A stretch of DNA of 64,000 nucleotides from an uncultured Alphaproteobacteria bacterium (lineage in GTDB: Bacteria > Pseudomonadota > Alphaproteobacteria > Rhodobacterales > Rhodobacteraceae), in assembly GCA_902537215.1 (NCBI GenBank), contig CACBAM010000007.1:1-64000 (forward strand), in the 5' to 3' direction. Below are positions 3,632-61,795 of this stretch, piece after piece. The notes under the pieces are model-generated. The model made no database searches. It saw nothing but the letters and a program-made list of their open reading frames with translations, and was not told the origin of the DNA. A program made the translations under genes and the position numbers. Positions within the stretch are counted from its first letter, which is position 1. Every line of letters begins with the position of its first letter.

Positions 3632-5149
3632 ATGTCTAGTGAAATTAAAGCTACAATTCCTGGTGCTTCGCTTGCATCAACAATAAAAGTACTAGCGGGG
3701 CTTGGTCCACTTGGTGAAAAAGTTTTAAAGCAAAATGGAATAAGTGAGATTGATCCAAAAAAAAATTACCCGAGTTCCATTAGACTAAAAATATTTGAGG
3801 AGGTAAGAAGTAGATTTGGTACTGACGCATTATATGCAATTGGTATAGAGCAAGGGCTTTTAATGTTATCTATGCTACCTGATTTTGGTAAGTACATAGA
3901 TAATTCTAGAAAAACATACTCGATGAGATCGGTGTCTTCAAACAATAGAACTAGAAATTTCAACTTTATAGATGAAACTTTGCCTGGGCTACAAAAAATT
4001 ACAAATGATTACATGGGGCAATTTCGTAGCAATAAGCTAAAAGGTGATATAGGTTTCAAACGTATATCAGAAGATACATGGGAAATGGCATTTGTTCTCG
4101 CTCAGCCATTGAAAAATTGGAAATTTGGAATTGGAAATTATCATATTTTTCTTATTAACCTTTTTGGCGATTTGTTCGATATTGATTATAAACTTGATGA
4201 AAAAAGTGAAGATATTGATGATGGTTGGTCAAGTGGAGCTTTTATCCTCAAATTTTTACCAAATGAGACTTTAAGGGATCAGAAAGAGATAATCGCAAAT
4301 ACAAGACTTAAAGCGCATGAAGGTCTCATGAAAGCTGTTTTAGAGGATGCTGAACGAAAAAAAGAGGAAACCGAGAGGTTATCTGTAAATTTGGCTAAAT
4401 ACCTTCCTCCGCAAGTCCACGAAGCAATTTTTTCTGGTGAATTTGATACTGGAATTACTACAAAAAGACGTAAATTAACTATTTTTTTTAGTGATATCTC
4501 AAATTTTACATCTACCTCGGAAGGTCTTCAACCGGAAGATCTAACAAGGTATCTTAATGAATACTTTTCAGAGATGACTGATATTGCGCTCGATCACGGT
4601 GCAACAATTGATAAATATATAGGAGACGCAATGATGGTATTTTTTGGTGACCCAGACAGTAAGGGTGAACAAGAAGATGCAAGAGCATGCGTTAAAATGG
4701 CATTGAAAATGCGCGATAGAATATCTGATTTACAAGATAAATGGCAAAAACAAGGTTTTGCAGATCCATTCGTGATTAGGATGGGCATGAATACTGGTTA
4801 TTGTAACGTAGGTAACTTTGGAAGCGACCAACGGCTTACTTATACAATTATTGGTAGTGAAGTAAATGTTGCTCAACGCTTGGAGGCATCAGCACAGCCA
4901 GGAGGGATATTGATGTCTTATGAAACATACGCACACGCTCAGGACTTGATAGAAGTAGAGCAACTAAATAGCATTTCGATGAAAGGAGTAAAAAGAGAAA
5001 TTAAAGTATTTTCGGTTTTAAATGAAATTAGACAGAGAAATAATAGAAAAGAATCTTCTCATAAAATAAAAAATGTTCCAGAAAGGATAGCGGATAGGCT
5101 GGATGCTCTCGAAACCAAAATTGAAGAGATTTTGGATCGGATAAAATGA
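3632..5149 (+). CDS. class III adenylate/guanylate cyclase with a conserved N-terminal sensor-like domain
   Basis: 505 residues in three parts. The N-terminal domain (about residues 1-225) has no predicted membrane segment. A short charged helix (EDAERKKEETERL) follows, then a class III cyclase domain (about residues 275-455), and finally a coiled-coil tail. The catalytic domain keeps both metal aspartates (FFSDISNF and YIGDAMM), the substrate lysine (TIDKYIGD), the adenine-specifying Thr (YTIIG) and the transition-state Asn/Arg pair (NVAQRLE). It should therefore be active, probably on ATP. The N-terminal domain opens with IPGASLASTIKVLAGLGPLG, which is repeated almost exactly in the next gene; I do not recognise the family. 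Its stop overlaps the start of the next gene by 4 bases (ATGA), so the two are translationally coupled. Confidence 0.9.
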   Translation: MSSEIKATIPGASLASTIKVLAGLGPLGEKVLKQNGISEIDPKKNYPSSIRLKIFEEVRSRFGTDALYAIGIEQGLLMLSMLPDFGKYIDNSRKTYSMRSVSSNNRTRNFNFIDETLPGLQKITNDYMGQFRSNKLKGDIGFKRISEDTWEMAFVLAQPLKNWKFGIGNYHIFLINLFGDLFDIDYKLDEKSEDIDDGWSSGAFILKFLPNETLRDQKEIIANTRLKAHEGLMKAVLEDAERKKEETERLSVNLAKYLPPQVHEAIFSGEFDTGITTKRRKLTIFFSDISNFTSTSEGLQPEDLTRYLNEYFSEMTDIALDHGATIDKYIGDAMMVFFGDPDSKGEQEDARACVKMALKMRDRISDLQDKWQKQGFADPFVIRMGMNTGYCNVGNFGSDQRLTYTIIGSEVNVAQRLEASAQPGGILMSYETYAHAQDLIEVEQLNSISMKGVKREIKVFSVLNEIRQRNNRKESSHKIKNVPERIADRLDALETKIEEILDRIK

Positions 5150-6708
5150 GCACACCCGCCATCAAAACAATAAATGAAATGAAGATACCAGGAGCCGCGC
5201 TAGCTTCCACGATAAAAGTGCTTGCTGGATTAGGGCCTTTGGGAGAAAGGGTTCTTAAAGAGCACGGAATTACTCAAATTGATAATGATAAAGAGTATCC
5301 CAGTCATCTAAGAGCAAGAATTTTTGAGGAGATAAGAACCCGTTTCGGGAAAGAAGCACTTTATGCTATTGGGCTTGAACAAGGTATTTTAATGCTTTCA
5401 ATAGTACCTTCAATTGGCAAATTTATAGACGATTTCAGGATAAAATATAAAAAAGAGCTTTTAGATCACTCTAATTTCTCTAAAAACCTCAAGATTTTAG
5501 ATCAAACTCTGCCAGATTGGGAAAAAATAACAAATGATTACCTTGGGCAAATGCACAATGATAAAGTGCGATCTAAATTAAATTTTATAAAGATAGGTCC
5601 AGGTAAATACGAAGTTCCGGTTATAAGCTCTCAAGTAGTTGAAAATAACAATTTTTTTGAAGCCAACTATTCAGTTTTTTTGATAAGTATGTTTTCAGAA
5701 CTCTTCGACATTAAAATGGCTATCGATGAAGAAAATAGTGAGGATATGGATAACGGTTTCAGCAGATACCAATATACAATAACTTTTAATCAACTACAAA
5801 AAACAAGGAACCATAAAGAACATTTAGCTGAAATCAGGTTTGATGCAAATCAACTTCTTTTGAGAAGGGTATTAGAGGAAGCAGAACAGCAAAAAAATCT
5901 CGTTCAAAAACAAAAAGAAGATACAGAAAAACTGTCTTCAAAACTAGGTAAGTATTTACCGCCTCAAATTCATAATGCGCTCTTTTCTGGCCAATTTGAT
6001 ACTGGAATCGCAACCAAAAGAAAAAAACTAACTATTTTTTTTAGCGATATAAAAAACTTCACATCTTCATCGGAAGGTTTACAACCGGAAGATTTAACTA
6101 AATATCTAAATGAGTATTTCTCTGAAATGACTGACATAGCGCTTACTTATGGAGCAACGATAGATAAATATATTGGTGATGCGATGATGGTATTTTTTGG
6201 TGACCCAGAAAGTAAAGGAGAAAGAGAGGATGCAAGAGCATGTATAAAAATGGCTTTAAATATGCAAAGAAAAATAAAAAGCCTCCAAAGTAAATGGAGA
6301 AACGAGGGCTTTTATGAGCCATTCCAAATTAGAATGGGAATTAATACCGGTTATTGTAATGTCGGAAATTTTGGTAGTGAACAGAGGTTGACTTATACAA
6401 TTATTGGTGGAGAGGTAAATATAGCCCAAAGGTTAGAAGCTGCCGCGCCTAGTGATGGGATATTAATGTCCTATGAAAGCTATGCTCATGCACAAGATTT
6501 AGTCGAAGTAGATGAATTAAACTCAATTAATATGAAAGGTATTAATAGGGAAATCAAAGTGTTTTCAGTTATTCGTGATCTAAAAACGAAAAAAATAGCA
6601 AAAGATGAAAGCAAGATATCTCTGATAAAAAGTGAAAAAAATTCACTCGAATTAAGGATAGATAGGCTAGAAAAGCTTGTTTCTGAAATGATATCAAAAT
6701 TAAATTAA
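5146..6708 (+). CDS. class III adenylate/guanylate cyclase, tandem paralogue of the preceding gene
   Basis: 520 residues with the same layout as its neighbour: an N-terminal domain beginning IPGAALASTIKVLAGLGPLG, a longer charged linker (about residues 235-275), a class III cyclase domain (about residues 290-470) and a C-terminal coiled coil. All key catalytic residues are present: FFSDIKNF, TIDKYIGDAMM, YTIIGGEVN and NIAQRLE. Its start overlaps the upstream stop by 4 bases. The cyclase domains are far more alike than the middle of the N-terminal domains. That suggests a tandem duplication followed by divergence of the input side, perhaps forming a heterodimer or two sensors with one output. 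No terminator is evident, though a perfect 12-base palindrome follows the stop. Confidence 0.9.
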   Translation: MSTPAIKTINEMKIPGAALASTIKVLAGLGPLGERVLKEHGITQIDNDKEYPSHLRARIFEEIRTRFGKEALYAIGLEQGILMLSIVPSIGKFIDDFRIKYKKELLDHSNFSKNLKILDQTLPDWEKITNDYLGQMHNDKVRSKLNFIKIGPGKYEVPVISSQVVENNNFFEANYSVFLISMFSELFDIKMAIDEENSEDMDNGFSRYQYTITFNQLQKTRNHKEHLAEIRFDANQLLLRRVLEEAEQQKNLVQKQKEDTEKLSSKLGKYLPPQIHNALFSGQFDTGIATKRKKLTIFFSDIKNFTSSSEGLQPEDLTKYLNEYFSEMTDIALTYGATIDKYIGDAMMVFFGDPESKGEREDARACIKMALNMQRKIKSLQSKWRNEGFYEPFQIRMGINTGYCNVGNFGSEQRLTYTIIGGEVNIAQRLEAAAPSDGILMSYESYAHAQDLVEVDELNSINMKGINREIKVFSVIRDLKTKKIAKDESKISLIKSEKNSLELRIDRLEKLVSEMISKLN

Positions 6709-8153: not shown

Positions 8154-8951
8154 TTAAATATTCTCGAAATCACCATGCCGACCCGCACCGGTTGAGAACC
8201 TCTCTAAACCCGCTAGACCTTCCTTGGGATTAGCATCTACTCCATTCATCCATTCCAACTTCAAACCCTCTCGGATAGTCAGTCCCCGTGTCTCGATTAT
8301 AGACCTACGATCAGCCAATACTGCTGCCTGAGGAAATCGAGCTATTTCACGTGCCATGGCCTCTGCCTCTTGACGAGTACTTCCAGTATTCACAATTTTC
8401 TCGCATAATCCTATTTGATATGCTTCTTGAGCTGTTACTTTCCGACCAGTCATCGCAATCTCAAGTGCTTTACCTTGACCAACAAGTCTCGGAAGACGAA
8501 CTGTACCTCCATCAAGCAGTGGTATACCCCAACGACGACAATAAACTCCAAAATAAGCGTCCTCTGCCATAATTCTTATATCGCACCAAAGCGCGAGCTC
8601 CATTCCCCCGGCTACTGCAGGACCCTCTATAGCACCGATTAAAGGTTTATTCAGTTCCATTCTAGATGGCCCTAATGGACCTCTCGGCGGCTCAGAAGAC
8701 CCTATAGGGAAATCTAGCTTGTGAAGCTCTTCTCTACTTTCACCCAAGGTATGAGCATACTTGAGATCCCAACCAGCACAAAATGCTCCTCCCTCTCCAT
8801 AAAAAACTCCAACTTTTGCATCGCTATTATTGAATTCATTAAATGCTTCTACCAAATCATCAGCTGACTCTGGATCCATCGCATTCCGTGCCTCAGGACG
8901 ATTGTGAATAATTGTCCAGACATCATCTGTTTTAACTATTTCTACTGTCAT
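8154..8951 (-). CDS. enoyl-CoA hydratase/isomerase (crotonase) family protein
   Basis: A 265-residue crotonase-fold protein. The first oxyanion segment is FCAGWDLKYA and the second GPAVAGGMELALWCD. In the usual active-site stretch the sequence is GVYCRRWGIPLLDGGTVRLP. Arg and Cys stand where standard hydratases carry the first catalytic Glu, and an Asp is near the second Glu position. This variant is common in a subgroup annotated only as crotonase family, so simple enoyl-CoA hydration should not be assumed. Starts at an ATG. The CoA substrate cannot be deduced from the neighbours (epoxide hydrolase, GGCT-like protein). Confidence 0.88.
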   Translation of the reverse strand: MTVEIVKTDDVWTIIHNRPEARNAMDPESADDLVEAFNEFNNSDAKVGVFYGEGGAFCAGWDLKYAHTLGESREELHKLDFPIGSSEPPRGPLGPSRMELNKPLIGAIEGPAVAGGMELALWCDIRIMAEDAYFGVYCRRWGIPLLDGGTVRLPRLVGQGKALEIAMTGRKVTAQEAYQIGLCEKIVNTGSTRQEAEAMAREIARFPQAAVLADRRSIIETRGLTIREGLKLEWMNGVDANPKEGLAGLERFSTGAGRHGDFENI

Positions 8952-10554: not shown

Positions 10555-11850
10555 TTATACAGTTAACTTATGAAGTGTTATTTTTTTATCTCTTCCCCGA
10601 ACCTCAAAATTTTTTACTTCTTGTGTAGGTAAATTTTCACTGAGTCGCAATTTAACGTCGTCAGACATTAAAACATCGGATTTAACCTCTTTACATGCCT
10701 CACAAATTCTACTAGCTACATTCACAGTATCTCCAATGACAGTAAATTCAACTCGATCTTCACTCCCAACGTTTCCAACGAAGCATGATCCATAATGCAC
10801 CCCCACTCTATGCTTTATAACGGGCAAATTTTTATCTGAACGTTCTTTCTCCCATTCTCGCATTGAAATCTGCATCTGTCTAATGCAATTGAGAGCATTT
10901 TGAGCATCATTACCTCTAGATACTGGAGTTCCAAAAGTCGCCATTACGCTATCACCAATGAACTTATCTACCGATCCACCGTTCTGAAATACCGCAGCTA
11001 CCATTTTGGTTTGATACTCTGAAAGTAGCTCAAGAACCTCCTTGGGCTCCAATCCCTCAGATAGCTTTGTAAAATCAGAAATATCAGTGAACATAACGGC
11101 GATGTTTTGTTCTTTTTCCGCAGTTTGATTGAAATCAAGTTTACTGCTTTCTATTTCTTCTCTAACTTCTGGAGAAAAGTATCTGCCTAATAAATTATTA
11201 GATCTTTCTTGTAATGTAGCTTCCTTAAGATTTCTATCAATTACCCATGCCAGTGTTATTAGTCCGGCAGTTACTACTATGAGATACGTTGAGTTATTAA
11301 ATAAAACTTGACCATTAATTGCATTAATATTTGTTGCTATTTCATTGTAATTAAATGAGAAAAATAATTCTGGAGTTGAAGAAATAGCAAATATTTGAAA
11401 TATTGTTATCGCTAAGACATAAAAAATAAGAAAAAGTGAAAGGTAAAATCTAGCAAACATAACCGACACTACCATCGGACCTGCAGCACCAATAAAAGCG
11501 TAGTCCATAATTCGACCACCCATGAGATCTGGAAATTTAGCAAAAGTATACTCATAGTTCAGTATAAAAAAAATCGCTATGGGGAAACACATCTGCATGA
11601 GTACCGCTAAAAAAAGACAAATACGATAGCGGGACTCGTTCACAAAAACAGCAACACTGCCATAGATTAGCAAGCCACCTAAAAATAGAAAAGTAAGTAT
11701 TTGCCTTGTAAAAGGTGCTTCTAAACCAGGCAAAATTATTGCTGTTGATACTCCCATTAAGTATAAGCCAAAAAGGGTAATTGCTGCAATCTTTAAGCCC
11801 TGCACATAGCGCTTGTTAATAGATTTTTCGTTACTGATCGATGAACTCAT
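10555..11850 (-). CDS. membrane-bound class III adenylate cyclase (six-helix + cyclase domain)
   Basis: 431 residues. The first 200 or so hold about six hydrophobic helices, starting with IAAITLFGLYLMGVSTAIIL, and form a membrane module. The C-terminal half is a class III cyclase domain (about residues 240-425). Metal aspartates are in MFTDISDF and FIGDSVMATF, the substrate Lys in SVDKFIGD, the base-selecting Thr in FTVIGD and the transition-state residues in NVASRI. It should be active on ATP. The module lacks an obvious ligand pocket, so the input signal is unknown. It is the third of four cyclases in 10 kb and is followed 98 bases upstream by the fourth on the same strand. Confidence 0.9.
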   Translation of the reverse strand: MSSSISNEKSINKRYVQGLKIAAITLFGLYLMGVSTAIILPGLEAPFTRQILTFLFLGGLLIYGSVAVFVNESRYRICLFLAVLMQMCFPIAIFFILNYEYTFAKFPDLMGGRIMDYAFIGAAGPMVVSVMFARFYLSLFLIFYVLAITIFQIFAISSTPELFFSFNYNEIATNINAINGQVLFNNSTYLIVVTAGLITLAWVIDRNLKEATLQERSNNLLGRYFSPEVREEIESSKLDFNQTAEKEQNIAVMFTDISDFTKLSEGLEPKEVLELLSEYQTKMVAAVFQNGGSVDKFIGDSVMATFGTPVSRGNDAQNALNCIRQMQISMREWEKERSDKNLPVIKHRVGVHYGSCFVGNVGSEDRVEFTVIGDTVNVASRICEACKEVKSDVLMSDDVKLRLSENLPTQEVKNFEVRGRDKKITLHKLTV

Positions 11851-11948: not shown

Positions 11949-13850
11949 TTAGGACGGTATTCCTGCCTTTTTAAAATTACTTGATAACTTTTCCATAAAA
12001 GATCTATCCATAATTATGAAGGTTTTCATGGCTCTTCTTAATTTTTTAAAATTAATACTACCATCAATTTCTAATATCCTTTCGGCTAATTTCTTGGCAT
12101 CATTTGACCTGCCCTTTTCCATATCTATAAAGGCTCTGATTCCAAGAGCCCCCATTTGTGACCCTCCAAAGTATTGTTCGTTTTCTGATAACTCAGACGC
12201 CAACTTATAGGCTTTCTCATACTCTTTCAAATATGTAAGCGCTAAAGCATAGTTTAACTTTACGTTCCCTGGTGGATGAGGAGCTACTTTTAAAGCTTTT
12301 TCATAACTCTCAACCGCCTGATCATACAGGCCTACGATAAAAAGAGAATTTGCAGCGGATAAAATACTTATGATGCCGGTCGGATTTAAATCTGATGAAT
12401 TAATCGCATATTTCCTAGCGGCTTCAAGCAATTCTTCTTCTGAATATTCAGGGAATTCCTTAGGATTTTTAGCCATTAAAGTTGCTAGAAGGCTATTGGC
12501 ATCTGATAAATCTGGGCCATATTTGACTGCTCGCTTGGCAGTTTCTATCATATCTTTTCCAATATTCCAATCACGTAGCCCTACATTTGCCTCAGCTGTG
12601 AAATACCAGGCATACATAGAAAGAACAACAGGGTTATTTGGTTCTGTCTCAAAAATAGTCTCAAATAATTTCCCAGCTTCCTTGACACCCTCTAATGACA
12701 TAGAAAGGAAAAGAGGGTTAGCTTTTAGAAACCTTTGCCAATTTTCGGGGTCCTTAAAATATTTTCTATCATCATCAAAGGACTCTCCTAGAGTTAGTTT
12801 AATTTGAAGTTTTTTTAGTACTTTTTCAGAAATTGTATCTTGAATTTTAAATATATCATTCAATTGAAAGTCAAACTTGTCTGTCCAGACTATCTTATTC
12901 TTTACAACATCTGAAAGCTCTACCGTAGTTCTAATTTTTTCTCCTGAAACTTGGTTGTATCCTCTTAGGATATAGTTCACATAATATTCATTCTTTATTT
13001 CTTGATCAGACATACCTTTTTTCTTTATGAAATTACTAGTGCTGCTTGATTGCACTAAAAGCCTTGGATGACTGGCTAATGAAGAGATAATTATATCGGT
13101 CATCCCACTACTGAGCTGGTCGTCTGATTTATTTCCTGATCTATTTTCAAATGGCATTACTAAAACCATTGGCCGATCAGACTCGGCAATAATTTGTTCA
13201 GCATTCTTTATTTCCGTATCGTCATTTAAATAAAAGGAAAACACACCTATAGTTAAAACTAAAATGCCTACAGCTAGAATGCTTATGAGACCTTTTGACC
13301 GCTTAGGCTTCAGAGTTCTTTTTTGGGAAGGATCTAACACAATATCAAAAGCATGGAATTCGTTTTGTTTTACTTTTTGAATGCCAAGATCATTGAATTT
13401 ATGTTTTGTTTTACCTTTCACATAATCAAAAACACTTTTTGATATTGAGATTCCACCTGCTAATGCTAATGCTTCTAGTCGGGCTGCTATATTTACCCCT
13501 TCACCCAATAAATTTCCCTTTTCCTTTATTACGTCTCCCGTATTGATACCAATACGAAAGTCCAGCGCAATCTTTGTAGATGATGATAAATTACTAGTTT
13601 TTATCTCTTTTTGAAAATCAACAGCGCACTCCACCGCATCTACAGCGCTAACGAATTCCGCCAAAAAAGAGTCGCCCCCCGAATTAAATAAATTGCCATT
13701 ATATTTTTTAAACAACCCTTTAAGTATCTTTTCATAAAATCTAAGACTTTTTACAGTTTCGCTTTCATCTATTTCCATATGCTTACTGTAATTCACTACG
13801 TCAGTAGCAAAAATTACTGCAATCTTTCGGTCAATTTCTTTTTTGGGCAT
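11949..13850 (-). CDS. cyclase-domain / TolB-like / TPR fusion protein
   Basis: 633 residues. An N-terminal class III cyclase domain (about residues 5-170) is followed by one membrane helix (about 186-208, ILAVGILVLTIGVFSFYL). Then come a TolB-like N-terminal domain (VMPFENRSG onward, about 228-350) and a series of TPR repeats to the C-terminus. The topology would place the cyclase in the cytoplasm and the TPR part in the periplasm. The two metal Asp positions (FATDVVNY, SGGDSFLAEF) and NIAARLE are kept. The usual substrate Lys before GD is not present (NGNLFNSGGD), as in the many rhizobial-type members of this architecture, so ATP specificity is uncertain. It is divergent from the Ldi-like gene. 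Confidence 0.88.
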   Translation of the reverse strand: MPKKEIDRKIAVIFATDVVNYSKHMEIDESETVKSLRFYEKILKGLFKKYNGNLFNSGGDSFLAEFVSAVDAVECAVDFQKEIKTSNLSSSTKIALDFRIGINTGDVIKEKGNLLGEGVNIAARLEALALAGGISISKSVFDYVKGKTKHKFNDLGIQKVKQNEFHAFDIVLDPSQKRTLKPKRSKGLISILAVGILVLTIGVFSFYLNDDTEIKNAEQIIAESDRPMVLVMPFENRSGNKSDDQLSSGMTDIIISSLASHPRLLVQSSSTSNFIKKKGMSDQEIKNEYYVNYILRGYNQVSGEKIRTTVELSDVVKNKIVWTDKFDFQLNDIFKIQDTISEKVLKKLQIKLTLGESFDDDRKYFKDPENWQRFLKANPLFLSMSLEGVKEAGKLFETIFETEPNNPVVLSMYAWYFTAEANVGLRDWNIGKDMIETAKRAVKYGPDLSDANSLLATLMAKNPKEFPEYSEEELLEAARKYAINSSDLNPTGIISILSAANSLFIVGLYDQAVESYEKALKVAPHPPGNVKLNYALALTYLKEYEKAYKLASELSENEQYFGGSQMGALGIRAFIDMEKGRSNDAKKLAERILEIDGSINFKKLRRAMKTFIIMDRSFMEKLSSNFKKAGIPS

Positions 13851-13950: not shown

Positions 13951-15627
13951 ATGTTAAAATTCAGCATGAATATTGAAAGTCTTCCATCATTAAATGATAA
14001 AACGCTTGGCTGGCTAACTTTTTTACACCGGAAAGTTTCAATTAATGATGATTGGTCTGAAGACGGCGAACCCTTAGATTGGTGGGATAAAACATCTAAC
14101 CCCCCAGTATTGAATTTTGCTAGATTTGATCTTTCAGAGTCTAGCTACGCACTCGGGTTGATGGCGGATGTTACACCAGCATGGCGAGAAGTGTATGCTT
14201 TCATTTTAAAAGGGTTGAGTGAACGACATCTTACTTTTTGGGCTGCTTACGATTGGTTAACCCAAATTGGCCCTGATCCTAATCGAGGCAAATATCCTCA
14301 AGAATGGATAGATCTTTGGATACCAGATCACTTGGTAGGAAAATATGATACTCCAGGCTGGGTTGCAAACGGCATTGAGCCTTGGGGTCTACAGAAAGAT
14401 CCAATTGGTGCAGATGGAAATTTATTTTTTAAAGGTTGGCTAAATTTGATCCAAAGCTTACATGTCTACACGACCGGCGAAGACACATGGGGTTCAAGTT
14501 TCCAGGTAGCTGGGTTCGATAGATCGAAGTTTGATTGGACACAACATAGATTAGTTGAACATTTATCTTCACAATGGACAAAAAACAAGATGGGCCCACA
14601 TTGTGAAAATACAAAAATATGGCCATATTGCTTATCGGCAGCAGGATTAGGTCTTCAACTTTATGACGCAATTTTTCAAAAAAATACACACTCTGTTTAT
14701 CCAGAATGGGTAGAACATACGAAAGATAAATATTACGGCTTTGATAGTTCAGGAGCGCTAGAATGGACACCAATCTATTATGATCCATTAATTGATCATA
14801 TTCATGCAGCTGGACCATCTAATGGATTGACAATAGCCTTTTATATGATGCCTCAAGATCCAATTTTTGCGGAGTTTTTATATCGAACAGCGGTTAAAAA
14901 ACTTGGTTGGGACAATATCAACAAAGAAATAAAAATGAAGCCTGAACCACGATTTATGGCTCTTGGGTTAGCCTGTGCAAAGGAATTTGGGGATACAACA
15001 GTAGAAATGCGTTTGAGAGCTTTTGCTGAAGAACACTTTGAGCCGCGATGGTTTGGGGAGAATAATATAAACTTTGGTTATTGGTTTAATTTGAATGAAA
15101 AATGGCCAAGAGGACAATGGGCTGCACTGGCTATGATGGCTGAAGTTGGGAAATCAGGTGCATGGTCAAACCTATTTAGAAACCCTAATTTAGAAAAATT
15201 CGATGCTCCATCGCTTGAAGGTGTCGACTTTCCAAATATTTTGGTCGAGCAGGCATTCAACGACCCTAACAGCCAAACATTACATATAAAACTTAAAGTA
15301 GCAAATAAAAGCAAGGAGAATAGTCCTTCTAAGATATTTATAAAAAAGATACCAGACTTATCTGCTGTTAAGGTCAAAAGGGATGGATATCTCTACGACA
15401 TGTGGAAAGCAACTGGAAAAAGCTCAGTTGAAATTGATATTTCTTATTCTGATATGAAACTTGAAATTTATACTGGATGGTCTGGTGCGAAGAAAAGAGG
15501 TGAATTCAACAAGGTTATTAAAAAAGATAATTTAACAAGCATTGGAACAGGAATAATGCAAAGACCACAATCTCTTAAAATAATAAATACGTCATCATGT
15601 CCGTGTTGTTCTTCCATTGGCAATTAA
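13951..15627 (+). CDS. linalool dehydratase/isomerase-like protein (Ldi family fold)
   Basis: 558 residues, soluble, rich in Trp and Tyr, with the helix pairs of an (alpha/alpha)6 barrel. The segment HCENTKIWPYC has two Cys nine residues apart (Cys218, Cys227). This matches from memory the spacing of the catalytic pair in Castellaniella linalool dehydratase/isomerase (CEPDNYFVQC). The preceding GNLFFKGWLNLIQSL also aligns with that enzyme's GNIMYKGHLNLM, but Trp163 replaces the active-site His. An Asp in the early ARFDLSESSY stretch (Asp60) may match its catalytic Asp. There is an unusual Cys-rich end (SSCPCCSS). No signal peptide is present, whereas LinD is exported. It may act on an alkenol or related isoprenoid, or on an unrelated hydroxylated substrate. 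The start is the first ATG; one 15 bases later is also possible. Confidence 0.65.
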   Translation: MLKFSMNIESLPSLNDKTLGWLTFLHRKVSINDDWSEDGEPLDWWDKTSNPPVLNFARFDLSESSYALGLMADVTPAWREVYAFILKGLSERHLTFWAAYDWLTQIGPDPNRGKYPQEWIDLWIPDHLVGKYDTPGWVANGIEPWGLQKDPIGADGNLFFKGWLNLIQSLHVYTTGEDTWGSSFQVAGFDRSKFDWTQHRLVEHLSSQWTKNKMGPHCENTKIWPYCLSAAGLGLQLYDAIFQKNTHSVYPEWVEHTKDKYYGFDSSGALEWTPIYYDPLIDHIHAAGPSNGLTIAFYMMPQDPIFAEFLYRTAVKKLGWDNINKEIKMKPEPRFMALGLACAKEFGDTTVEMRLRAFAEEHFEPRWFGENNINFGYWFNLNEKWPRGQWAALAMMAEVGKSGAWSNLFRNPNLEKFDAPSLEGVDFPNILVEQAFNDPNSQTLHIKLKVANKSKENSPSKIFIKKIPDLSAVKVKRDGYLYDMWKATGKSSVEIDISYSDMKLEIYTGWSGAKKRGEFNKVIKKDNLTSIGTGIMQRPQSLKIINTSSCPCCSSIGN

Positions 15628-15646: not shown

Positions 15647-16315
15647 TTATTTATTTAAACTCAGCTTGTAAATTTTCTCTTTCGCTAAAGGAAAAATTTC
15701 GTATTGGGCATCAAATAGCTCTTGTATTTGTACGCTCTTTATAGAAAGACCTCCCGTATAGTAACCATATGACGGCATCAATATTCTTTCTTTATTTAAT
15801 ACAAAGCATGCAACCCAAATTCCTCTAGCATTAATTATAAGCTTAACTTTTGGATGATAGTGACCAAAAACAGAAAACCTCTGATCAATTGATGGGTAAT
15901 GGCTGAAACAAATACCATCAATAACAATCTTGTCAGTTAAGGTTAATCCAATATCTTTTAGAAAACTAATATTATCATGGTTACCGACGGTTAAGGTACA
16001 ATCGATATTTTCAAGGATTTTAAAAAAAAGTTTTTTTGATTTTGCAGTCATCCTTTGAAAAGCTAATTTGTCATGGATCAAATCGCCTAGAAAAATTATC
16101 TTTTCGACAGGATGATTGTGTATAAAATTTGAAAGTTGTCTAAGTGTCTCAATAGTATCAAAAGGTGGAATATACTGATTTGACTTATTGAAAGACGAAC
16201 CTTTTTCAAAGTGTAAATCAGAAATAATCAAAGTCTTTTTACTTGGCCAATAAAGTTCGCCATTTGCAAAGAAGGAGAACTTTTTATTAGCAAAAATAAC
16301 GTCCTTATAATGCAT
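15647..16315 (-). CDS. pdeM: ligase-associated DNA damage response endonuclease PdeM
   Basis: 222-residue calcineurin-like metallophosphoesterase. All five metal motifs are visible in order: DLHFEKG, GDLIHD, GNHDN, SHYP and GHYHP. This combination, placed directly after an Lhr-type helicase gene, identifies the ligase-associated subfamily. Its start overlaps the end of the helicase frame by 11 bases, so the pair is translationally coupled. It probably processes DNA ends or abasic sites together with the helicase, exonuclease and ligase encoded beside it; that role is inferred from the conserved gene set. Confidence 0.9.
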   Translation of the reverse strand: MHYKDVIFANKKFSFFANGELYWPSKKTLIISDLHFEKGSSFNKSNQYIPPFDTIETLRQLSNFIHNHPVEKIIFLGDLIHDKLAFQRMTAKSKKLFFKILENIDCTLTVGNHDNISFLKDIGLTLTDKIVIDGICFSHYPSIDQRFSVFGHYHPKVKLIINARGIWVACFVLNKERILMPSYGYYTGGLSIKSVQIQELFDAQYEIFPLAKEKIYKLSLNK

Positions 16316-18689
16316 TAACTTCTTCGAGCAATTCGTTCTCTAGCTTCTCTAAGTAAAAATTATCTAGTTCATTTTTATCTGGTGTCTCTTTATGATATTC
16401 AAAGAGTAAAGAGAAGGCTAGAGCAGATGCTCTATTGAGTTTGTTTATCTTAATTTTGTTTTTAATTCTGAATAGAAACGTTGAAAGCCTATCAAGATCA
16501 ACAAGGTCTTTCTTAGCATTTTCTGTAGTGATTTTTAATAATATATGGTGCGGCTCATGCTTTCTTAATACTTCATAAATCAAGTCAGTATTAAAGGTCA
16601 CTTGTTTACCCGTTTTTTGGTTGCCTGGAAGATTTTTATAAATTAATCCGGAAATTATAGCGATTTCTCTAAATAATCTTTTTATTAATGGAGTTTCTTC
16701 TAACCATTCATATAAATCCTCGATTAAAATATCTTTAGAAAAAAGGAAGTCGATGTCTTCAATTTCTTTAGAAAATGAAAATAAAATAGAATAATCATTC
16801 GCAACAAATCCAAATGGTTGCACGCCAAGCTTTTTAATTCGTCTTAGAATAAGAAATCCTAGAGTTTGGTGCGTGTTTCTTCCTTCAAATGGGTGAACTG
16901 CCATATAATATTTTTCCTGCTTACCATTTTTTCTCTTAAAGGTTTCGACAAGGAATTCATTCTCTTTCGGGAAGGAAGAAAACTTTGTCTGCAGCTCTGA
17001 CCATTTTTTTAAACTATCAGGAAGATCTACTGCATCAAGTCGTTTAGAAAAAATCTTTCTTACGGTTCTTGAGAGATGGGTCGACAGTGGTAAATTTCCT
17101 CCTTTAAAAGATGGTATTTTTTGATGCTCGAGGGCAGTTATTTTAGCATATGCGATATTACCAATAACTTTCTCAAACATCAGCCTCTTTCCGCCGAATA
17201 TAAATGTGTCCCCTGCTGATAAACCACTAATGAACCACTCCTCAATATTTCCTAAATATCTATTGCCTACCCTAAGACGCAACATTTCCGCTTCAACAAT
17301 AGTTCCAACATTCATTTTATATTTTGTGACTAGTGATTTATCTCTAATTTCATAATATTCTCCATCCCTCCTCAGCCGTGAATACTCCTCATAAGCCTGA
17401 AGGGAATAACCTCCATTTTCAACAAATGAAAGAGTTTTTTCAAAATCCTCAATATTAAGATTTCTGTACGGCCATGCCTCTTTAATTTGTTTGTATAAAT
17501 CTTCTTTTTTAAATCTTTGGGAAATTGCAACACCAACAATATGCTGGGCAAGTACATCTAAAGAGCCTTCAGAGTATATTTCATCTTCAAGAAAATTTAA
17601 CTCTACACACTTTTTTGCAGCAATACATTCTACATACTCGAAACAATTAGTTGGAACTAGAATAGCTCTTGAAGGAGTATTTATCGTGTGATTTGCTCTA
17701 CCAATTCTCTGAACCAACCTTGCAACACCTTTAGGAGCTCCTATCTGCATAACCAAGTCAATATTACCCCAGTCAAGACCCAAGTCTAATGAACTGGTGG
17801 CAACTACACACTCTACATGCCCTTCTACTATTTCCTTTTCTACTTTTTTCCTAAGCTCTTTTTCCAGACTTCCATGATGAATCGCTATTTTTTTATTCTT
17901 ATTGTTAATCGCCCAGAGGCTTTCAAATAATATTTCCGCCTGAGCTCGTGTGTTTACAAAAAGAATAGATGACCTAAATTTAAGTATTTCTGAATATATT
18001 TCTGAAAGAGCATATCTCGGGGAATGGCCCGACCAAGGAATTCTATTTCCTGAATTTAATATCGTAATTTCTGGTGCGGCCTTTGAATGAGTACTAACAA
18101 GCTTTGTATTCTTATTATTTGAAAGATATTTTTTAGCAAGATTAGTATTCTTCAAAGTAGCCGAGAGCCCAATTACTTGAAACGGTTTTATAGATCGTAG
18201 CCTTGCTAAATTTAAGCTTAATAAGTGCCCTCTTTTTGAATCGAAAAATGTATGTAGCTCATCAATAATAACAAATTTTAAATTCTTAAACAAATTAATG
18301 ACATCCGTCCTTGCCATCAGAAGTGCGAATGACTCAGGAGTTGTCATCAGAAAATTAGGAGGCTTTCTAATTTGCTTAGCTTTATTGTACGTTGACGTGT
18401 CACTCGTGCGGGTCTCTACTGTAATATTAATTTTTAAATCATTAATAGGATTGAGTAAATTTCTTTGAACATCAGTTGTTAAGGCTTTTAAGGGTGATAT
18501 ATATAAAGTATGGAATTCCTGGCTTTTGTAATTATTATTTATAAAATCATCAATTGATGGCATAAAACCACCAATTGTTTTACCTCCACCGGTTGGCGCA
18601 TGTAAAATTACATCAAATCCCTCCTTAATCAATCTTAAGGTTTCAATTTGATGGTCATATAAAGACCAACCTTTTTTCTTGAGCCACAC
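16305..18689 (-). CDS. ligase-associated Lhr-type DEXH helicase
   Basis: 794-residue superfamily 2 helicase of the bacterial short Lhr (Lhr2) type. Visible motifs are the Q-motif region WSLYDHQ, Walker A (HAPTGGGKT, about residues 31-39), DELH box, LSAT (motif III) and QRIGRANH (motif VI), followed by the winged-helix and Lhr core domains. The start is a GTG giving WLKKKGW; upstream codons in frame offer no ATG, GTG or TTG before a stop. It is divergent from the exonuclease gene across 50 bases and drives PdeM expression. The length (about 800) excludes the long Lhr-Core form of about 1500 residues. Confidence 0.93.
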   Translation of the reverse strand: MWLKKKGWSLYDHQIETLRLIKEGFDVILHAPTGGGKTIGGFMPSIDDFINNNYKSQEFHTLYISPLKALTTDVQRNLLNPINDLKINITVETRTSDTSTYNKAKQIRKPPNFLMTTPESFALLMARTDVINLFKNLKFVIIDELHTFFDSKRGHLLSLNLARLRSIKPFQVIGLSATLKNTNLAKKYLSNNKNTKLVSTHSKAAPEITILNSGNRIPWSGHSPRYALSEIYSEILKFRSSILFVNTRAQAEILFESLWAINNKNKKIAIHHGSLEKELRKKVEKEIVEGHVECVVATSSLDLGLDWGNIDLVMQIGAPKGVARLVQRIGRANHTINTPSRAILVPTNCFEYVECIAAKKCVELNFLEDEIYSEGSLDVLAQHIVGVAISQRFKKEDLYKQIKEAWPYRNLNIEDFEKTLSFVENGGYSLQAYEEYSRLRRDGEYYEIRDKSLVTKYKMNVGTIVEAEMLRLRVGNRYLGNIEEWFISGLSAGDTFIFGGKRLMFEKVIGNIAYAKITALEHQKIPSFKGGNLPLSTHLSRTVRKIFSKRLDAVDLPDSLKKWSELQTKFSSFPKENEFLVETFKRKNGKQEKYYMAVHPFEGRNTHQTLGFLILRRIKKLGVQPFGFVANDYSILFSFSKEIEDIDFLFSKDILIEDLYEWLEETPLIKRLFREIAIISGLIYKNLPGNQKTGKQVTFNTDLIYEVLRKHEPHHILLKITTENAKKDLVDLDRLSTFLFRIKNKIKINKLNRASALAFSLLFEYHKETPDKNELDNFYLEKLENELLEEVNAL

Positions 18690-18739
18690 GTCAATTGGAT
18701 TATGTTTAAAATTTACCGCAATAACTAATCTTTCTAAAT

Positions 18740-19729
18740 ATGATATCTATTGATAACAAACTGTATATTAGAGACATCGATACATATATAGACCCTTTTT
18801 TTCCTGTAGAAAGGGCAATAATAACCCATGGGCACGCTGATCACGCAAAAGCAGGTCACAAGCATGTACTCTGTACTCCTGAAACCTCTGAGATTATGAA
18901 AATTAGATATGGTGAGAACTGTGCAAGAAGTTTTCAAACAATTAAATATGGGCATTCGGTGAAAATAGGAAGGATAAGCGTTACGCTCTATCCTGCGGCA
19001 CATATATTGGGAAGCGCACAAGTTTTATTAGAAACACCAAAGCATAGAATTGTGATTACTGGGGACTATAAAACAATATTAGATCGACATTTAGATCCCT
19101 TTGAGGTCGTTCCATGTGATTTGCTTATTACCGAGGCTACCTTCGGATTGCCAATATTTAAATTTAATGAACCAGAAATGGAAATTGAGCGATTGCTGGA
19201 TAATATTTCCAAACATAGAGAAAATACATTCTTAATTGGAGCTTATTCACTCGGTAAAGCGCAGAGGATTATCTGGCTTCTTCGAGAGGCAGGTTTTTCA
19301 GACGATATTTTTGTTCATGGATCAATGGATAAATTGTGTGACTTTTATCAGAGCAAGGGAATTAGGCTTGGCACCCTAAGAAAGGCTACTTTAGACAATA
19401 AAAAAGACTTTAAAGGGAAAATCATTGTAGCACCCCCTTCTGCACTCAAGGATAGATGGTCACGACGTTTTGAAAATATTACTAGATGTTATGCTTCAGG
19501 CTGGATGCAAGTTAAACAGCGCGCTAAGCAGAGCCAAATTGAAATTCCTCTTGTTATATCGGATCATTCCGATTGGAATGAGCTTACCAATACTATTAAA
19601 CAGACTGGTGCACAAAAAGTTTGGATAACACACGGAAGAGAAGATGCTCTGAAATATTGGTGCGAAAAAAACGGAGTTCAAGCTGAGCCGCTTTCTCTTC
19701 AACATAGAGATGAAGCAAACGAACTATAA
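18740..19729 (+). CDS. ligase-associated DNA damage response exonuclease (metallo-beta-lactamase/beta-CASP)
   Basis: 329-residue metallo-beta-lactamase-fold nuclease related to SNM1/Artemis and CPSF-type enzymes. The zinc motif is THGHADHAKAGH near residues 30-42, with further ligands at HILGSAQ and TGDYK. The beta-CASP Asp/His motifs appear toward the end (SDHSDWNEL, WITHGRE). The stop overlaps the ligase ATG by one base (TAATG), giving translational coupling. It presumably trims DNA ends before ligation; known only as part of the conserved four-gene repair set. Confidence 0.92.
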   Translation: MISIDNKLYIRDIDTYIDPFFPVERAIITHGHADHAKAGHKHVLCTPETSEIMKIRYGENCARSFQTIKYGHSVKIGRISVTLYPAAHILGSAQVLLETPKHRIVITGDYKTILDRHLDPFEVVPCDLLITEATFGLPIFKFNEPEMEIERLLDNISKHRENTFLIGAYSLGKAQRIIWLLREAGFSDDIFVHGSMDKLCDFYQSKGIRLGTLRKATLDNKKDFKGKIIVAPPSALKDRWSRRFENITRCYASGWMQVKQRAKQSQIEIPLVISDHSDWNELTNTIKQTGAQKVWITHGREDALKYWCEKNGVQAEPLSLQHRDEANEL

Positions 19730-21297
19730 TGAAAGCTTTTTCGAATTTACTATCAGATCTTATTTTGACGAGCTCGAGGAACAGAAAACTATCACTATTA
19801 GAACAGTATTTTAGCTCAACACCTGACCCCGACCGAGGCTATGCTTTGGCAGCACTTACCGGCTCACTTAACTTTAAAAACATAAAAGCTTCATTCTTTA
19901 AAAATTTAATCAAAGAAAAGCAAGACGAACACTTATTTGACCTATCTTACGACTATGTAGGTGATTTAGCTGAAACTATATCTTTGTTATGGGACCAAGA
20001 AAAAAGTGGCAACATGCCAAGACTTTCTTCTTTATTCGAAAACCTAAAAAAGGCTAAAACTGATGAGCTCAATAACTATATAATTAATATTCTAAACATT
20101 AGTACGGCTGATCAGAGATGGGCTTTCATTAAACTTTTTACAGGAGGCTTACGCATTGGGGTATCAAGCAGGCTGGTAAAGCAAGCACTAGCAAATTATG
20201 GCAACGTTGATCTTGATGAAATTGAAAAGATTTGGCATGGGTTACACTTTCCTTACATTAATTTGTTTTCGTGGCTTGAGAACAAGGGTAGTAAACCGAA
20301 AATTTCGATCTATGACATTTTTCATCCAATGATGCTTGCTCATCCGGTTGTGATGGAAAAAGATTTGGCAGTAGCAAATCCAAAAGATTTCGTTGCTGAA
20401 TATAAATGGGACGGAATTAGAGTTCAAATTGTAAGCCATAGTGAAGGATGTCGCCTTTATTCAAGGACAGGTGATGAAGTTTCTAAGTCTTTTCCAGAAA
20501 TAATTAAGACAATACAAGGTGATTTTGTACTAGATGGAGAATTACTCGCTGGAATTAACAATGATCCAAAAACATTTAACGATCTTCAGCAAAGGCTGAA
20601 CAAAAAAGCTCCTTCAGAAAAGTTTATAAAAAAAAATCCATGTTTTATAAAGATATATGATGTTTTGTTTTTCAACGGCGATGATTTAAGAGATAAAACG
20701 CTACTTGAAAGGAAAAAAGTTCTGAATTCCTATTTTAGCACGAATAGATCTCCAATGTTTTTATCGGAAACAATTGATTTTAAAGACTGGAGATTTTTAG
20801 ACAAAATAAGAGATATATCCAACAAACAAATACATGAAGGCGTGATGATTAAATCAGTTTCCAGTCCTTATATTGCTGGGAGACCGCGCGGCAAATGGTT
20901 TAAATGGAAAAGAAACCCAAAGAATGTAGATGCGATAATCATGTATGCACAAAGAGGACATGGAAAGCGGAGTTCTTTTTACTCAGACTATACTTTTGGT
21001 GTATTCAACAAGGAAAAGGAACTTGTGCCTATAGGCAAGGCATACTCCGGCTTTACCGATGAAGAGTTAAATAGATTAGATAAATTTGTAAGAACAAAAA
21101 CTATAAACCGATTTGGACCTGTTAGAGAGGTTGAAAAAACATTAGTCGTAGAGATTGCATTTGATGAAATGTCTTTGAGCAATAGACATAAGTCAGGAAT
21201 TGCTTTACGTTTTCCTAGGTTCAAAAGAATTAGATGGGATAAGCCAACTAATGAAGTAGAAACTTTGGAGCAAATTAGAAAAAGTTTTTTAGACTAA
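19729..21297 (+). CDS. ATP-dependent DNA ligase (cisplatin-type, LigB-like)
   Basis: 522 residues: an N-terminal DNA-binding domain (about 1-190), the nucleotidyltransferase domain and an OB-fold domain. The adenylated lysine lies in the motif I segment EYKWDGIR (about residue 225). Other ligase motifs are visible: SRTGDE (III region), DGELL (IIIa/IV), EGVMIKS (IV) and the motif V stretch KWFKWKR. This length and layout match bacterial ATP-dependent ligases of the non-LigD class that travel with Lhr, PdeM and the exonuclease. Together they would form a back-up DNA repair set separate from NAD-dependent LigA. Confidence 0.93.
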   Translation: MKAFSNLLSDLILTSSRNRKLSLLEQYFSSTPDPDRGYALAALTGSLNFKNIKASFFKNLIKEKQDEHLFDLSYDYVGDLAETISLLWDQEKSGNMPRLSSLFENLKKAKTDELNNYIINILNISTADQRWAFIKLFTGGLRIGVSSRLVKQALANYGNVDLDEIEKIWHGLHFPYINLFSWLENKGSKPKISIYDIFHPMMLAHPVVMEKDLAVANPKDFVAEYKWDGIRVQIVSHSEGCRLYSRTGDEVSKSFPEIIKTIQGDFVLDGELLAGINNDPKTFNDLQQRLNKKAPSEKFIKKNPCFIKIYDVLFFNGDDLRDKTLLERKKVLNSYFSTNRSPMFLSETIDFKDWRFLDKIRDISNKQIHEGVMIKSVSSPYIAGRPRGKWFKWKRNPKNVDAIIMYAQRGHGKRSSFYSDYTFGVFNKEKELVPIGKAYSGFTDEELNRLDKFVRTKTINRFGPVREVEKTLVVEIAFDEMSLSNRHKSGIALRFPRFKRIRWDKPTNEVETLEQIRKSFLD

Positions 21298-33611: not shown

Positions 33612-35093
33612 ATGGGCAGATTAGAAAACTTTAAAATGTTGATTGATGGAGAGTGGGTCTTATCCTCCGATAATAAGACCTTTGAAAGCTCAAATCCCAC
33701 AACGGGAGAGAGTTGGTGCACTATACCAGAAGCATCAACAAAGGATGTTAATAGCGCGGTAGAAGCGGCTCACAAAGCATTTATTGATGGACCATGGTCA
33801 AAAATGACTCCGACAGAAAGAGGAGAGCATCTCAGAAAATTAGCCGATATACTAGCTAGTAAATCTGAGGAATTGGGTAAAATTGAAACCATAGACACCG
33901 GAAAAATGTTAAAGGAAACTAAATGGCAGGCAAAATATATCTCACAATTTTTTAACTTCTTTGCTGGGTGCGCTGATAAAGTCTCTGGTCAAACCTTACC
34001 AATTGATAAACCAGATTTATTTGTATTTACAAACAGAGAGCCACTGGGCGTTGTAGCAGCAATTGTTCCTTGGAATTCACAATTGTTTCTTGTTGCCGTA
34101 AAGATTGGTCCAGCATTGGCTGCGGGAAATACTATCGTTTTAAAAGCGTCCGAACACGCATCTGCAGCTATGCTTGCTTTTGGTAAATGCGTTGAAGAAG
34201 CAGGTATCCCTCCTGGAGTCGTAAATATTATAACAGGCCATGGAGATCCTTGTGGAAAAGAATTAACAAGCCATCCCAAGGTCGCCAGGATTTCGTTTAC
34301 TGGAGGACCAACTTCTGCGCGTCATGTTATTAGAAATTCTGCCGAAAATTTTGCAGAAGTGTCCTTAGAGCTGGGGGGTAAATCACCTTTTATTGTATTT
34401 GATGATGCGGATATAGAGAACGCAGTTAATTGTTCTATAGCTGGAATTTTTGGCGCAACAGGTCAAAGCTGTGTAGCTGGGTCGAGATTATACCTTCAAG
34501 AAAATATAGCAGATGAATTTTTAAGCTTAATTGTTAAGCAGGCAAAAAACATAAAAATTGGAGACCCATTATTGGACGAAACCCAAATGGGCCCTCTATG
34601 CACTAAAGGCCAACTTGAAAATATTAAAACTGAGCTTGCGTTTGCTGTAGAAGAAGGTGCAACCTTGTTGTGCGGTGGCAAATCGCCCGAAGGTCTTGGT
34701 GAATTGTTTTTCGAGCCAACAATAGTAGAGTGCCCTAGTCAGAAACTAAAAATAGTAGATACTGAATTATTTGGACCTGTACTATCCGTAATAAAATTTA
34801 AAACTGAAGAAGAGGTCATATCTCTTGCTAATGATACAAAACATGGTTTGGCAGCAGGCATTTTTTCAAAAAGTAATTCTAGGTGTCTAAGAGTAAGTAA
34901 GGCAGTTCATGCTGGAATAGTATGGGTTAACACATATAGGGTTGTGTCTCCGATTGCAGAATTTGGAGGATTTAAAAACTCAGGTTATGGTAGAGAAAGT
35001 GGTTTTCAAGCGATATATGACTACACTCGACCTAAAACGGTTTGGATGAATATGTCAGATGAACCGGCAGCTAATCCATTTGTAATGAAATAA
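33612..35093 (+). CDS. aldehyde dehydrogenase (betaine-aldehyde-dehydrogenase-like group)
   Basis: 493 residues with the full aldehyde dehydrogenase fold. Catalytic Glu is in LELGGKSPF, catalytic Cys in ATGQSCVAGSR (about residue 290), and a typical C-terminal NTYRVVSPIAEFGGFKNSG follows. It leads the rightward operon containing LLM, CaiD, carnitine dehydrogenase and BKACE. In that context it may oxidise 4-trimethylaminobutyraldehyde to gamma-butyrobetaine or handle a related amino-aldehyde; this is inference from position only. Confidence 0.9.
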   Translation: MGRLENFKMLIDGEWVLSSDNKTFESSNPTTGESWCTIPEASTKDVNSAVEAAHKAFIDGPWSKMTPTERGEHLRKLADILASKSEELGKIETIDTGKMLKETKWQAKYISQFFNFFAGCADKVSGQTLPIDKPDLFVFTNREPLGVVAAIVPWNSQLFLVAVKIGPALAAGNTIVLKASEHASAAMLAFGKCVEEAGIPPGVVNIITGHGDPCGKELTSHPKVARISFTGGPTSARHVIRNSAENFAEVSLELGGKSPFIVFDDADIENAVNCSIAGIFGATGQSCVAGSRLYLQENIADEFLSLIVKQAKNIKIGDPLLDETQMGPLCTKGQLENIKTELAFAVEEGATLLCGGKSPEGLGELFFEPTIVECPSQKLKIVDTELFGPVLSVIKFKTEEEVISLANDTKHGLAAGIFSKSNSRCLRVSKAVHAGIVWVNTYRVVSPIAEFGGFKNSGYGRESGFQAIYDYTRPKTVWMNMSDEPAANPFVMK

Positions 35094-35125
35094 AGGATAA
35101 AGGATTTTTTAGGGGGATAAAGTAT

Positions 35126-36163
35126 ATGAAATTTGATTTAGCAATAAATCTAGAAAGAGCAGACAACTCTTTATCAATGAAAGACGTGAAAAACCATACA
35201 CTAGAGATGGTACAAATGGCTGATCAAAGTGGTTTTAATATTGTATGGGCTGCCGAACACCATGCCTTGGAAATGACAATTGCACCAAACCCTTTTCAAA
35301 TAATTACATGGTGGGCAGAAAATACAAACGATGTAAGGCTCGGTACTGCTGTAGCAGCAGCCCCGTACTGGCATCCAATCAAACTTGCTGGAGAGGCTGC
35401 TTTCACAGACCTAATTACTGAGGGTCGCCTTGAATTTGGTATAGGTTCGGGGGCATACCAACGAGAATTTGATCGAATGCACCCAGGACTCAAACAATCT
35501 GATGCATGGAAATATATGCAGGAGAGTCTTCCAGTTATCAAGAAGCTATGGGAAGGAGATTATGAGCATAATGGTGAATTTTGGTCTTTCCCATTATCTA
35601 CGTCTGTTCCAAAACCTGTGCAAAAAGGTGGTCCCCCTGTATGGGTAGCTGCTAGAGCACCTATAACCTATGACTATGCAGTAAAAAATCATTGCAATAT
35701 AATGTCTTGGCCTCTAACTAGACCATTTTCAGAAGCAGAGCTCTATAAACAACGCCTTGATGATGCTTTAGAAAGTGCCTCTAATGGCTTCAAACCTATT
35801 TTTGCGATGATGAGGCATGCTGCTGTCTATAAAAACAAAGAGGAATCTAGTATCTATATCAGAGCTATTCAACGTATATTAGGCCAATTTGAAAATTTGT
35901 TTAAAAATTTAGGTGACGTTAAAGACGGATTCCCCAAGGAAATTGCTTTGAAAGAACTAGAAAATAGGGAAGAATATAATCCAACTATGCTTGAAGAAAA
36001 TCTACTGTTTGGAACACCAGACGAGGTTATTAAAAAATTAAAGCGTTATGAAGATCTTGGTGTGGATAATTTTATCTATTACGCATCGATGGGGTTGGAT
36101 CATGGTTCACAGAAGAGATCACTAGAGTTGTTCTGTGAAGAAGTTCTTCCTGCTTTTCAATAG
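35126..36163 (+). CDS. LLM class flavin-dependent oxidoreductase
   Basis: 345-residue bacterial-luciferase-like TIM barrel: N-terminal MKFDLAINLERAD, then WAAEHHALEM, the FGIGSGAYQREFDRMHPG segment and GTPDEVIKKL near the end. These match the F420/FMN-dependent monooxygenase superfamily. AGGGGGA precedes the ATG. It needs reduced FMN from a separate reductase, which is not in the window. It sits between the aldehyde dehydrogenase and the CaiD-like gene. A C-N or C-S oxidising step on a betaine-like compound is possible, but no member of the characterised carnitine pathways uses an LLM enzyme. Confidence 0.9.
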   Translation: MKFDLAINLERADNSLSMKDVKNHTLEMVQMADQSGFNIVWAAEHHALEMTIAPNPFQIITWWAENTNDVRLGTAVAAAPYWHPIKLAGEAAFTDLITEGRLEFGIGSGAYQREFDRMHPGLKQSDAWKYMQESLPVIKKLWEGDYEHNGEFWSFPLSTSVPKPVQKGGPPVWVAARAPITYDYAVKNHCNIMSWPLTRPFSEAELYKQRLDDALESASNGFKPIFAMMRHAAVYKNKEESSIYIRAIQRILGQFENLFKNLGDVKDGFPKEIALKELENREEYNPTMLEENLLFGTPDEVIKKLKRYEDLGVDNFIYYASMGLDHGSQKRSLELFCEEVLPAFQ

Positions 36164-36172
36164 GAATAAAAA

Positions 36173-36976: not shown

Positions 36977-36977
36977 C

Positions 36978-37925: not shown

Positions 37926-37935
37926 TGAGGTTAGC

Positions 37936-38823: not shown

Positions 38824-38838
38824 TTATTGAGATAAACT

Positions 38839-61778: not shown

Positions 61779-61795
61779 TTAATAGGATTAGAAAA

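Follow-up and report, generated by a model that had tools for sequence, protein, structure and literature searches.

The window analysed here is a stretch of 64,000 nucleotides from a small, uncultured marine alphaproteobacterium of the family Rhodobacteraceae, and the gene under study is an open reading frame on its forward strand (13951-15627), starting with ATG and encoding a protein of 558 amino acids. In Pfam, this protein matches the Ldi family (PF18566) from residue 149 to residue 367 (14395-15051, + strand), scoring 55.4 bits (E 8.8e-15) where the cut-off is 26.1, and no other Pfam family is found at E ≤1; no NCBIfam match was obtained at E 0.01. Within the window genome, this reading frame is the single place over the PF18566 cut-off, with one other place at E 0.13 lying below it. 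By homology to the linalool dehydratase/isomerase LinD, the matched stretch is predicted to be part of an (alpha/alpha)6 barrel. It is followed by a less conserved C-terminal domain with boundaries drawn by eye (residues 421-512; 15211-15486, +), by a linker that varies among lineages (residues 513-546; 15487-15588, +) and by a conserved cysteine tip, CPCC (residues 550-553; 15598-15609, +). Regarding its cysteines, the protein has six, at positions 218, 227, 342, 550, 552 and 553. The AF2 model has a pLDDT of 33.2, too low for the fold to be used, from an input of 14 sequences where the other 13 are 87-99% identical to the window protein. The gene is matched in 17 of 22 genomes of its own genus, with completeness of 58-92%, and strong purifying selection acts on it, as seen in six same-genus pairs with a barrel dN of 0.026-0.043 and dS of 0.98-1.42.

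The first 60 residues hold no hydrophobic segment (best 19-residue hydropathy mean of 0.15), and the highest such mean across the whole protein is 0.97, so that N-terminal membrane spans of the type present in the linalool isomerase Lis are absent. The protein is thus probably cytoplasmic and apparently soluble, an export signal having been judged by hydropathy only. The sequence-only reading had also seen no export signal, and on this it agrees with the hydropathy profile; its emphasis on a cytoplasmic variant as something special is lost, as the Ldi-like domain of Lis is likewise predicted to be cytoplasmic in the available text of PMC4791888.

A tree of 16 sequences places the window protein in a clade set apart by a branch supported at 100/100, together with two same-genus proteins, the alphaproteobacterial proteins L023, L025 and L024 (56%, 52% and 44-45% identical to the window protein, respectively) and one Streptomyces plasmid protein (42%). 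Support is weak for how the remaining Ldi groups relate to one another, and L027 sits on a long branch. When profiles are compared, the clade matches that of the larger proteins L019, L026 and L020 with a probability of 98.2 and an E-value of 5e-14 over 441 columns, a match in which the domain of residues 421-512 is included. A further short Ldi group (L021 and L022, 347 and 348 aa) has C-Y-H-H replacing C-E at the first catalytic cysteine. In the literature that was searched, nothing was found on this clade and PF18566 was not mentioned.

Although phmmer of the PDB with the single sequence did not recover LinD, the profile of the seven clade sequences recovered eight LinD sequences among the PDB chains, with E-values from 1e-5 to 3.8e-4. 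The naming of the protein as linalool dehydratase/isomerase-like is therefore borne out twice, by this recovery and by the profile search against PF18566 that the sequence-only reading had proposed, where the match exceeds the cut-off and stands alone among Pfam families. In the profile alignment, GNLFFKGWLNL lies opposite E-NIMYKGHLNL of LinD, as had been claimed for these surroundings, and CENTKIWPYC lies opposite CEPDNYFVQC, thus placing C218 and C227 at C171 and C180 of LinD (in the PDB numbering, which exceeds that of PMC6600392 by one) and W163 at H129. The motif running from H217 through C218, E219, N, T, K, I, W, P and Y to C227 is encoded at 14599-14631 (+) and W163 at 14437-14439 (+).

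For the comparison of residues, 16 sequences were used, seven from the clade and nine from outside it, LinD being among the nine. The cysteine pair (C-x8-C) is present in all 16, so the spacing noticed earlier is that of the LinD pair, and the Glu after the first cysteine (E219 in the window protein) in 14. The replacement of the LinD histidine by Trp163 had also been pointed out, and the position is confirmed; however, it is not special, because His is found there in just three of the nine outside sequences (LinD, L027 and L052), the rest having Tyr (3), Arg (2) or Phe (1), and within the clade it is Trp in six and Phe in one. What is peculiar, as judged from the alignment, is the clade motif HCENTK[IV]WP[YF]C[LV]SAAGLGL, where the His before the first cysteine (H217) occurs in 7/7 clade sequences and 0/9 outside. 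Meanwhile, the Asn that follows C180 in 9/9 outside sequences is Leu or Val throughout the clade (0/7; Leu in the window protein), and the position of LinD Y66 is Phe in 7/7 clade sequences and in 3/9 of the others. The cap cysteines 49 and 102 are found in LinD alone (1/16), and the window protein has no cysteine before residue 218, so that the cap disulfide of LinD (C48-C101 in the numbering of PMC6600392, as far as that source was available) is absent. Among 15 same-genus sequences, C218, C227 and W163 are all retained, and C218, E219 and C227 are kept despite synonymous codon changes. Finally, the columns of D39 and Y45, which we take to be active-site residues of LinD, fall in a gap of the clade within a weakly aligned part. 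With H129 and Y66 replaced as well, the reaction may be different from that of LinD.

The CPCC tail described in the first reading stands out more clearly in the wider comparison, as a cysteine cluster ends all four full-length proteobacterial lineages, CPCC in three of them and CSSSCC in L024. Of the 34 positions in the preceding linker, only 1, 3 and 7 are shared with L023, L024 and L025, respectively, and the only cysteines invariant over the four lineages are C218, C227, C552 and C553, with C342 not retained in L023, L024 or L025. In addition, all 15 same-genus sequences have C550, C552 and C553, and the codons for C550 and C552 differ synonymously among them. Among open reading frames of at least 200 codons called mechanically in the window, one in 48 has three cysteines in its last 25 residues, and it is the Ldi-clade gene, while across six stretches the count is four in 176, two of them clade members. 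The Streptomyces clade protein ends before the linker and lacks the cysteine tail. Aligned in this way, a cysteine tip on a variable tether is a conserved feature of the proteobacterial members, and together with the clade-specific His before the first catalytic cysteine it marks, at the level of sequence, a separate Ldi clade. On the preferred reading, the tail would be redox- or metal-active. LinD is described as oxygen-sensitive and requiring a mild reductant in the consulted parts of PMC6600392 and PMC6013536, and the Lis assays reported in the available text of PMC4791888 used reductants, with an activity that varied with the choice of reductant; by analogy, a reducing arm would fit this need, which is the boldest reading of the tail.

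The clade is sparsely distributed. Among 292 genomes of the same order (113 genera), a full-length match occurs only in the window genome, with weak matches of 53 and 55 residues in two others. In the class, clade members were assigned by alignment in 4 of 385 genomes of a first draw (of seven with any Ldi match) and were found in 5 of 386 of a second, the two draws sharing genomes. Four other alphaproteobacterial lineages carry it, one as a fragment only; the G229 sequence covers the N-terminal part, where the contig runs out, and is 66% identical over 65 residues. Regarding mobile elements, the clade was found in 2 of 72,556 plasmid records, both from Streptomyces, with none among 50,697 phage records at E 0.1 and no relative in two scans of viral contigs. 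This patchy pattern suggests horizontal transfer.

Regarding the surroundings of the gene, the epoxide hydrolase placed 6 kb away by the sequence-only reading does exist, as the gene at 6889-8037 matches the epoxide hydrolase N terminus (PF06441, E 1.4e-35) at 5.9 kb from the Ldi gene, but it is no stable neighbour. Among the ten same-genus loci with about 8 kb of leftward sequence, it is present in four (L003, L004, L011 and L018) and was not found by tblastn at E 1e-3 in L006, L007, L012, L014 and L015, each long enough to hold most or all of the gene, while in L017 its position lies beyond reach. It was thus rejected as a fixed partner. An operon in common with Streptomyces, consisting of a hydrolase and an enoyl-CoA hydratase, was also rejected by pairwise comparison: the window epoxide hydrolase has no match at E 1e-3 among 13 Streptomyces proteins, and the Streptomyces hydratase is closer to the window crotonase at 36173-36976 (85.5 bits) than to that at 8154-8951 (75.5 bits).

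Two class III nucleotide cyclase genes lie on the reverse strand, one at 10555-11850, whose association with the Ldi gene is uncertain, and a second at 11949-13850, divergent from the Ldi gene and not found in every same-genus locus. Of the 16 same-genus loci, 13 hold the 10555-type cyclase, and the remaining three end too early to reach it: L009 and L010 break off within the 11949-type cyclase and L016 within the Ldi gene. The 11949-type cyclase was not found in L003, L004 and L014 beyond weak paralogue matches, and in L013 (1204-1299) a 32-residue remnant of it, 75% identical, lies beside the Ldi gene with the rest of the cyclase absent. In L018 the gene order is rearranged, and an open frame (L018:2-2683) joins the Ldi-clade gene to the cyclase gene that points the other way in the window; this is probably a chimera made during amplification or assembly. 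A membrane cyclase of the 10555-11850 kind, 37% identical to it over 198 residues, also adjoins the Ldi-clade gene of G027 (L029), and no cyclase is annotated near the Streptomyces gene. However, the adjacency in the window genome may be chance, because this genome (G000, 2.1 Mb) holds 22 class III cyclase matches, against three in G027 (3 Mb) and none in G349. Four of the 22 lie in its first 14 kb (3632-5149, 5146-6708, 10555-11850 and 11949-13850).

Directly downstream, at 15647-21297, genes assigned by eye as a phosphoesterase, an Lhr-like helicase, an exonuclease-like protein and an ATP-dependent DNA ligase keep the same order in 15 of the 16 same-genus loci, L018 excepted. Further away in the window, a carnitine-type degradation cluster (33612-42068) and a sulfoacetaldehyde acetyltransferase/phosphotransacetylase-like pair (60003-62749) were recognised by eye. 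In other lineages the surroundings change. In G027 (L029:621-1178) and on the Streptomyces plasmid (L043:13345-13962), the gene directly upstream encodes a protein of 185 aa and 205 aa, respectively; the two are homologous (39% identical), and by eye we take them to look like SCP2-type lipid carriers. As a partner they were rejected: the window genome holds no match, Pfam gives none at E 10, and nothing in the PDB scores better than E 0.37. CoA-transferase-like genes adjoin the gene in G229 and an enolase-superfamily-like gene lies nearby in G007, both by eye, and the annotated neighbours in Streptomyces include an enoyl-CoA hydratase, alpha/beta hydrolases and an acyl-CoA dehydrogenase. In L028, a magnesium transporter resembling MgtE is encoded about 3 kb from the Ldi-clade gene. 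The neighbours therefore vary by lineage, and a terpene-alcohol operon or a common pathway is not apparent.

A link to isoprenoids was sought elsewhere in the genomes. On Rhodococcus plasmids, Ldi relatives from outside the clade have genes for alcohol and aldehyde dehydrogenases nearby, and one of them (L052) also adjoins a gene for an AMP-binding protein, a setting that would be expected for terpenol breakdown. On another contig of the window genome (G000:C15), an AtuA protein (1.9e-137) belongs to a cluster (L059:8129-17301) where look-alikes of a ligase, a carboxylase beta subunit, an enoyl-CoA hydratase and a biotin carboxylase follow it, with an acyl-CoA dehydrogenase look-alike on its other side. 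The gene set resembles the atu genes, but none of the NCBIfam cut-offs naming a geranyl-CoA enzyme is reached in this cluster, gamma-carboxygeranoyl-CoA hydratase for instance scoring 147 of 426 bits. AtuA was matched in three of five clade genomes (not in G349 and G027) and in two of five genomes with other Ldi genes, so no association with the clade is seen and AtuA was rejected as an obligate partner. An isoprenoid alcohol is a possible substrate, and the algal isoprenoids put forward by the sequence-only reading are a guess, for which the AtuA-type cluster offers the sole indirect backing.

Considering these data together, the explanation given the most weight, tentatively and at a little under an even chance, is that the protein may be a cytosolic enzyme of the LinD superfamily, a cysteine-pair (de)hydratase/isomerase that acts on a lipophilic alcohol and whose tail takes part in redox or metal chemistry. 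The thiols of C218 and C227 would act as an acid/base pair; on an allylic or tertiary lipophilic alcohol they would remove the hydroxyl, shift it or add water, and H217 and E219 would carry out work that falls to H129 in LinD. The tethered cysteine tip, likened to the C-terminal cysteine array of a class II ribonucleotide reductase, would keep C218 and C227 in the reduced state in an aerobic cell, or would bind metal. As the weakest step, the substrate may be an isoprenoid alcohol that enters the genome's own AtuA-type carboxylase pathway. As reported in the accessible part of PMC6600392, LinD produced in the E. coli cytosol is inactive, which its authors attribute to its disulfide and its assembly; that the window protein has no cap cysteines counts for the cytosolic reading. 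Against the enzyme proposed here stand the lineage-varying neighbours, the AtuA count of 3/5 versus 2/5 and the tail-less Streptomyces members.

The strongest competitor, somewhat unlikely in our estimate, keeps the fold and the cysteine pair and assigns them another chemistry, in which an unsaturated substrate, CoA-bound or resembling a fatty acid, is hydrated or isomerised in place of a free terpene alcohol. It draws on the CoA-related neighbours in Streptomyces, on the CoA-transferase-like genes beside G229 and on the paired upstream proteins, whose resemblance to SCP2 the Pfam and PDB searches do not support; however, these neighbours change between lineages, and LinD and Lis, both characterised, use free terpene alcohols, according to the portions of PMC6013536 and PMC4791888 at hand. 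A plain linalool or short prenol dehydratase/isomerase, with the Trp and the tail as neutral relics of the clade's past, is a decidedly improbable alternative: the H129 position is variable outside the clade (His, Tyr, Phe or Arg) and the Streptomyces protein does without the tail, but the position is restricted to Trp or Phe within the clade, H217 never varies there, and the tail cysteines are kept where the linker is not. Lastly, a metal-handling protein on an Ldi scaffold, passing a soft metal between the cysteine tip and the cysteine pair as mercuric reductase does with its cysteines, would agree with the tail, the internal pair and the lack of a visible export signal, but is very unlikely, as no soft-metal resistance gene was seen by eye next to the gene and the conservation of the barrel appears to exceed what a carrier would need.

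Returning to the lipophilic-alcohol (de)hydratase/isomerase, its most far-reaching form is improbable, though worth stating: the clade would be a self-maintaining aerobic thiol lyase, where a cysteine-tipped swinging arm, possibly that of the neighbouring ring subunit, re-reduces the oxygen-sensitive catalytic pair, the acid/base His has moved from LinD 129 to H217, and a lipophilic alcohol in seawater is (de)hydrated or isomerised in a new way. The removal of water from alcohols without a cofactor is sought for alkene production; a clade without the cap disulfide, H129 and Y66 could reveal which residues the cysteine-pair chemistry truly requires, and the tail may reveal how an oxygen-sensitive enzyme works in an aerobic cytoplasm.

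Among known systems, the available part of a 2018 review (PMC6013536) names Lis as the sole protein similar in sequence to LinD. LinD/Ldi from Castellaniella defragrans (PDB 5G1U, 5HLR and 7AD2) has in common with the window protein the Ldi core, the C-x8-C pair and the Glu after the first cysteine. The window protein differs from it in having no signal peptide that could be seen, no cap cysteines, Trp for H129, Phe for Y66 and Leu for the Asn after C180, with H217 as a new residue, a longer C-terminal part and the cysteine tail. Lis from Thauera linaloolentis, compared by its published description, resembles it in the predicted cytoplasmic location of the Ldi-like domain (given in the accessible text of PMC4791888), as proposed for the window protein, but has four predicted N-terminal membrane spans where the window protein has none. 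The larger Ldi proteins from Alphaproteobacteria and a Rhodococcus plasmid (L019, L026 and L052) lie outside the clade and carry the motif CEPN.....CN, while the profile of L019, L026 and L020 extends over the clade in the 441-column match. Finally, the tail may be likened to that of the class II ribonucleotide reductase NrdJd, an unrelated protein with six cysteines that serves as an analogy only, where, according to the part of PMC5704485 at hand, cysteines at the extreme C-terminus serve the active site, the array relaying electrons to it and binding zinc.
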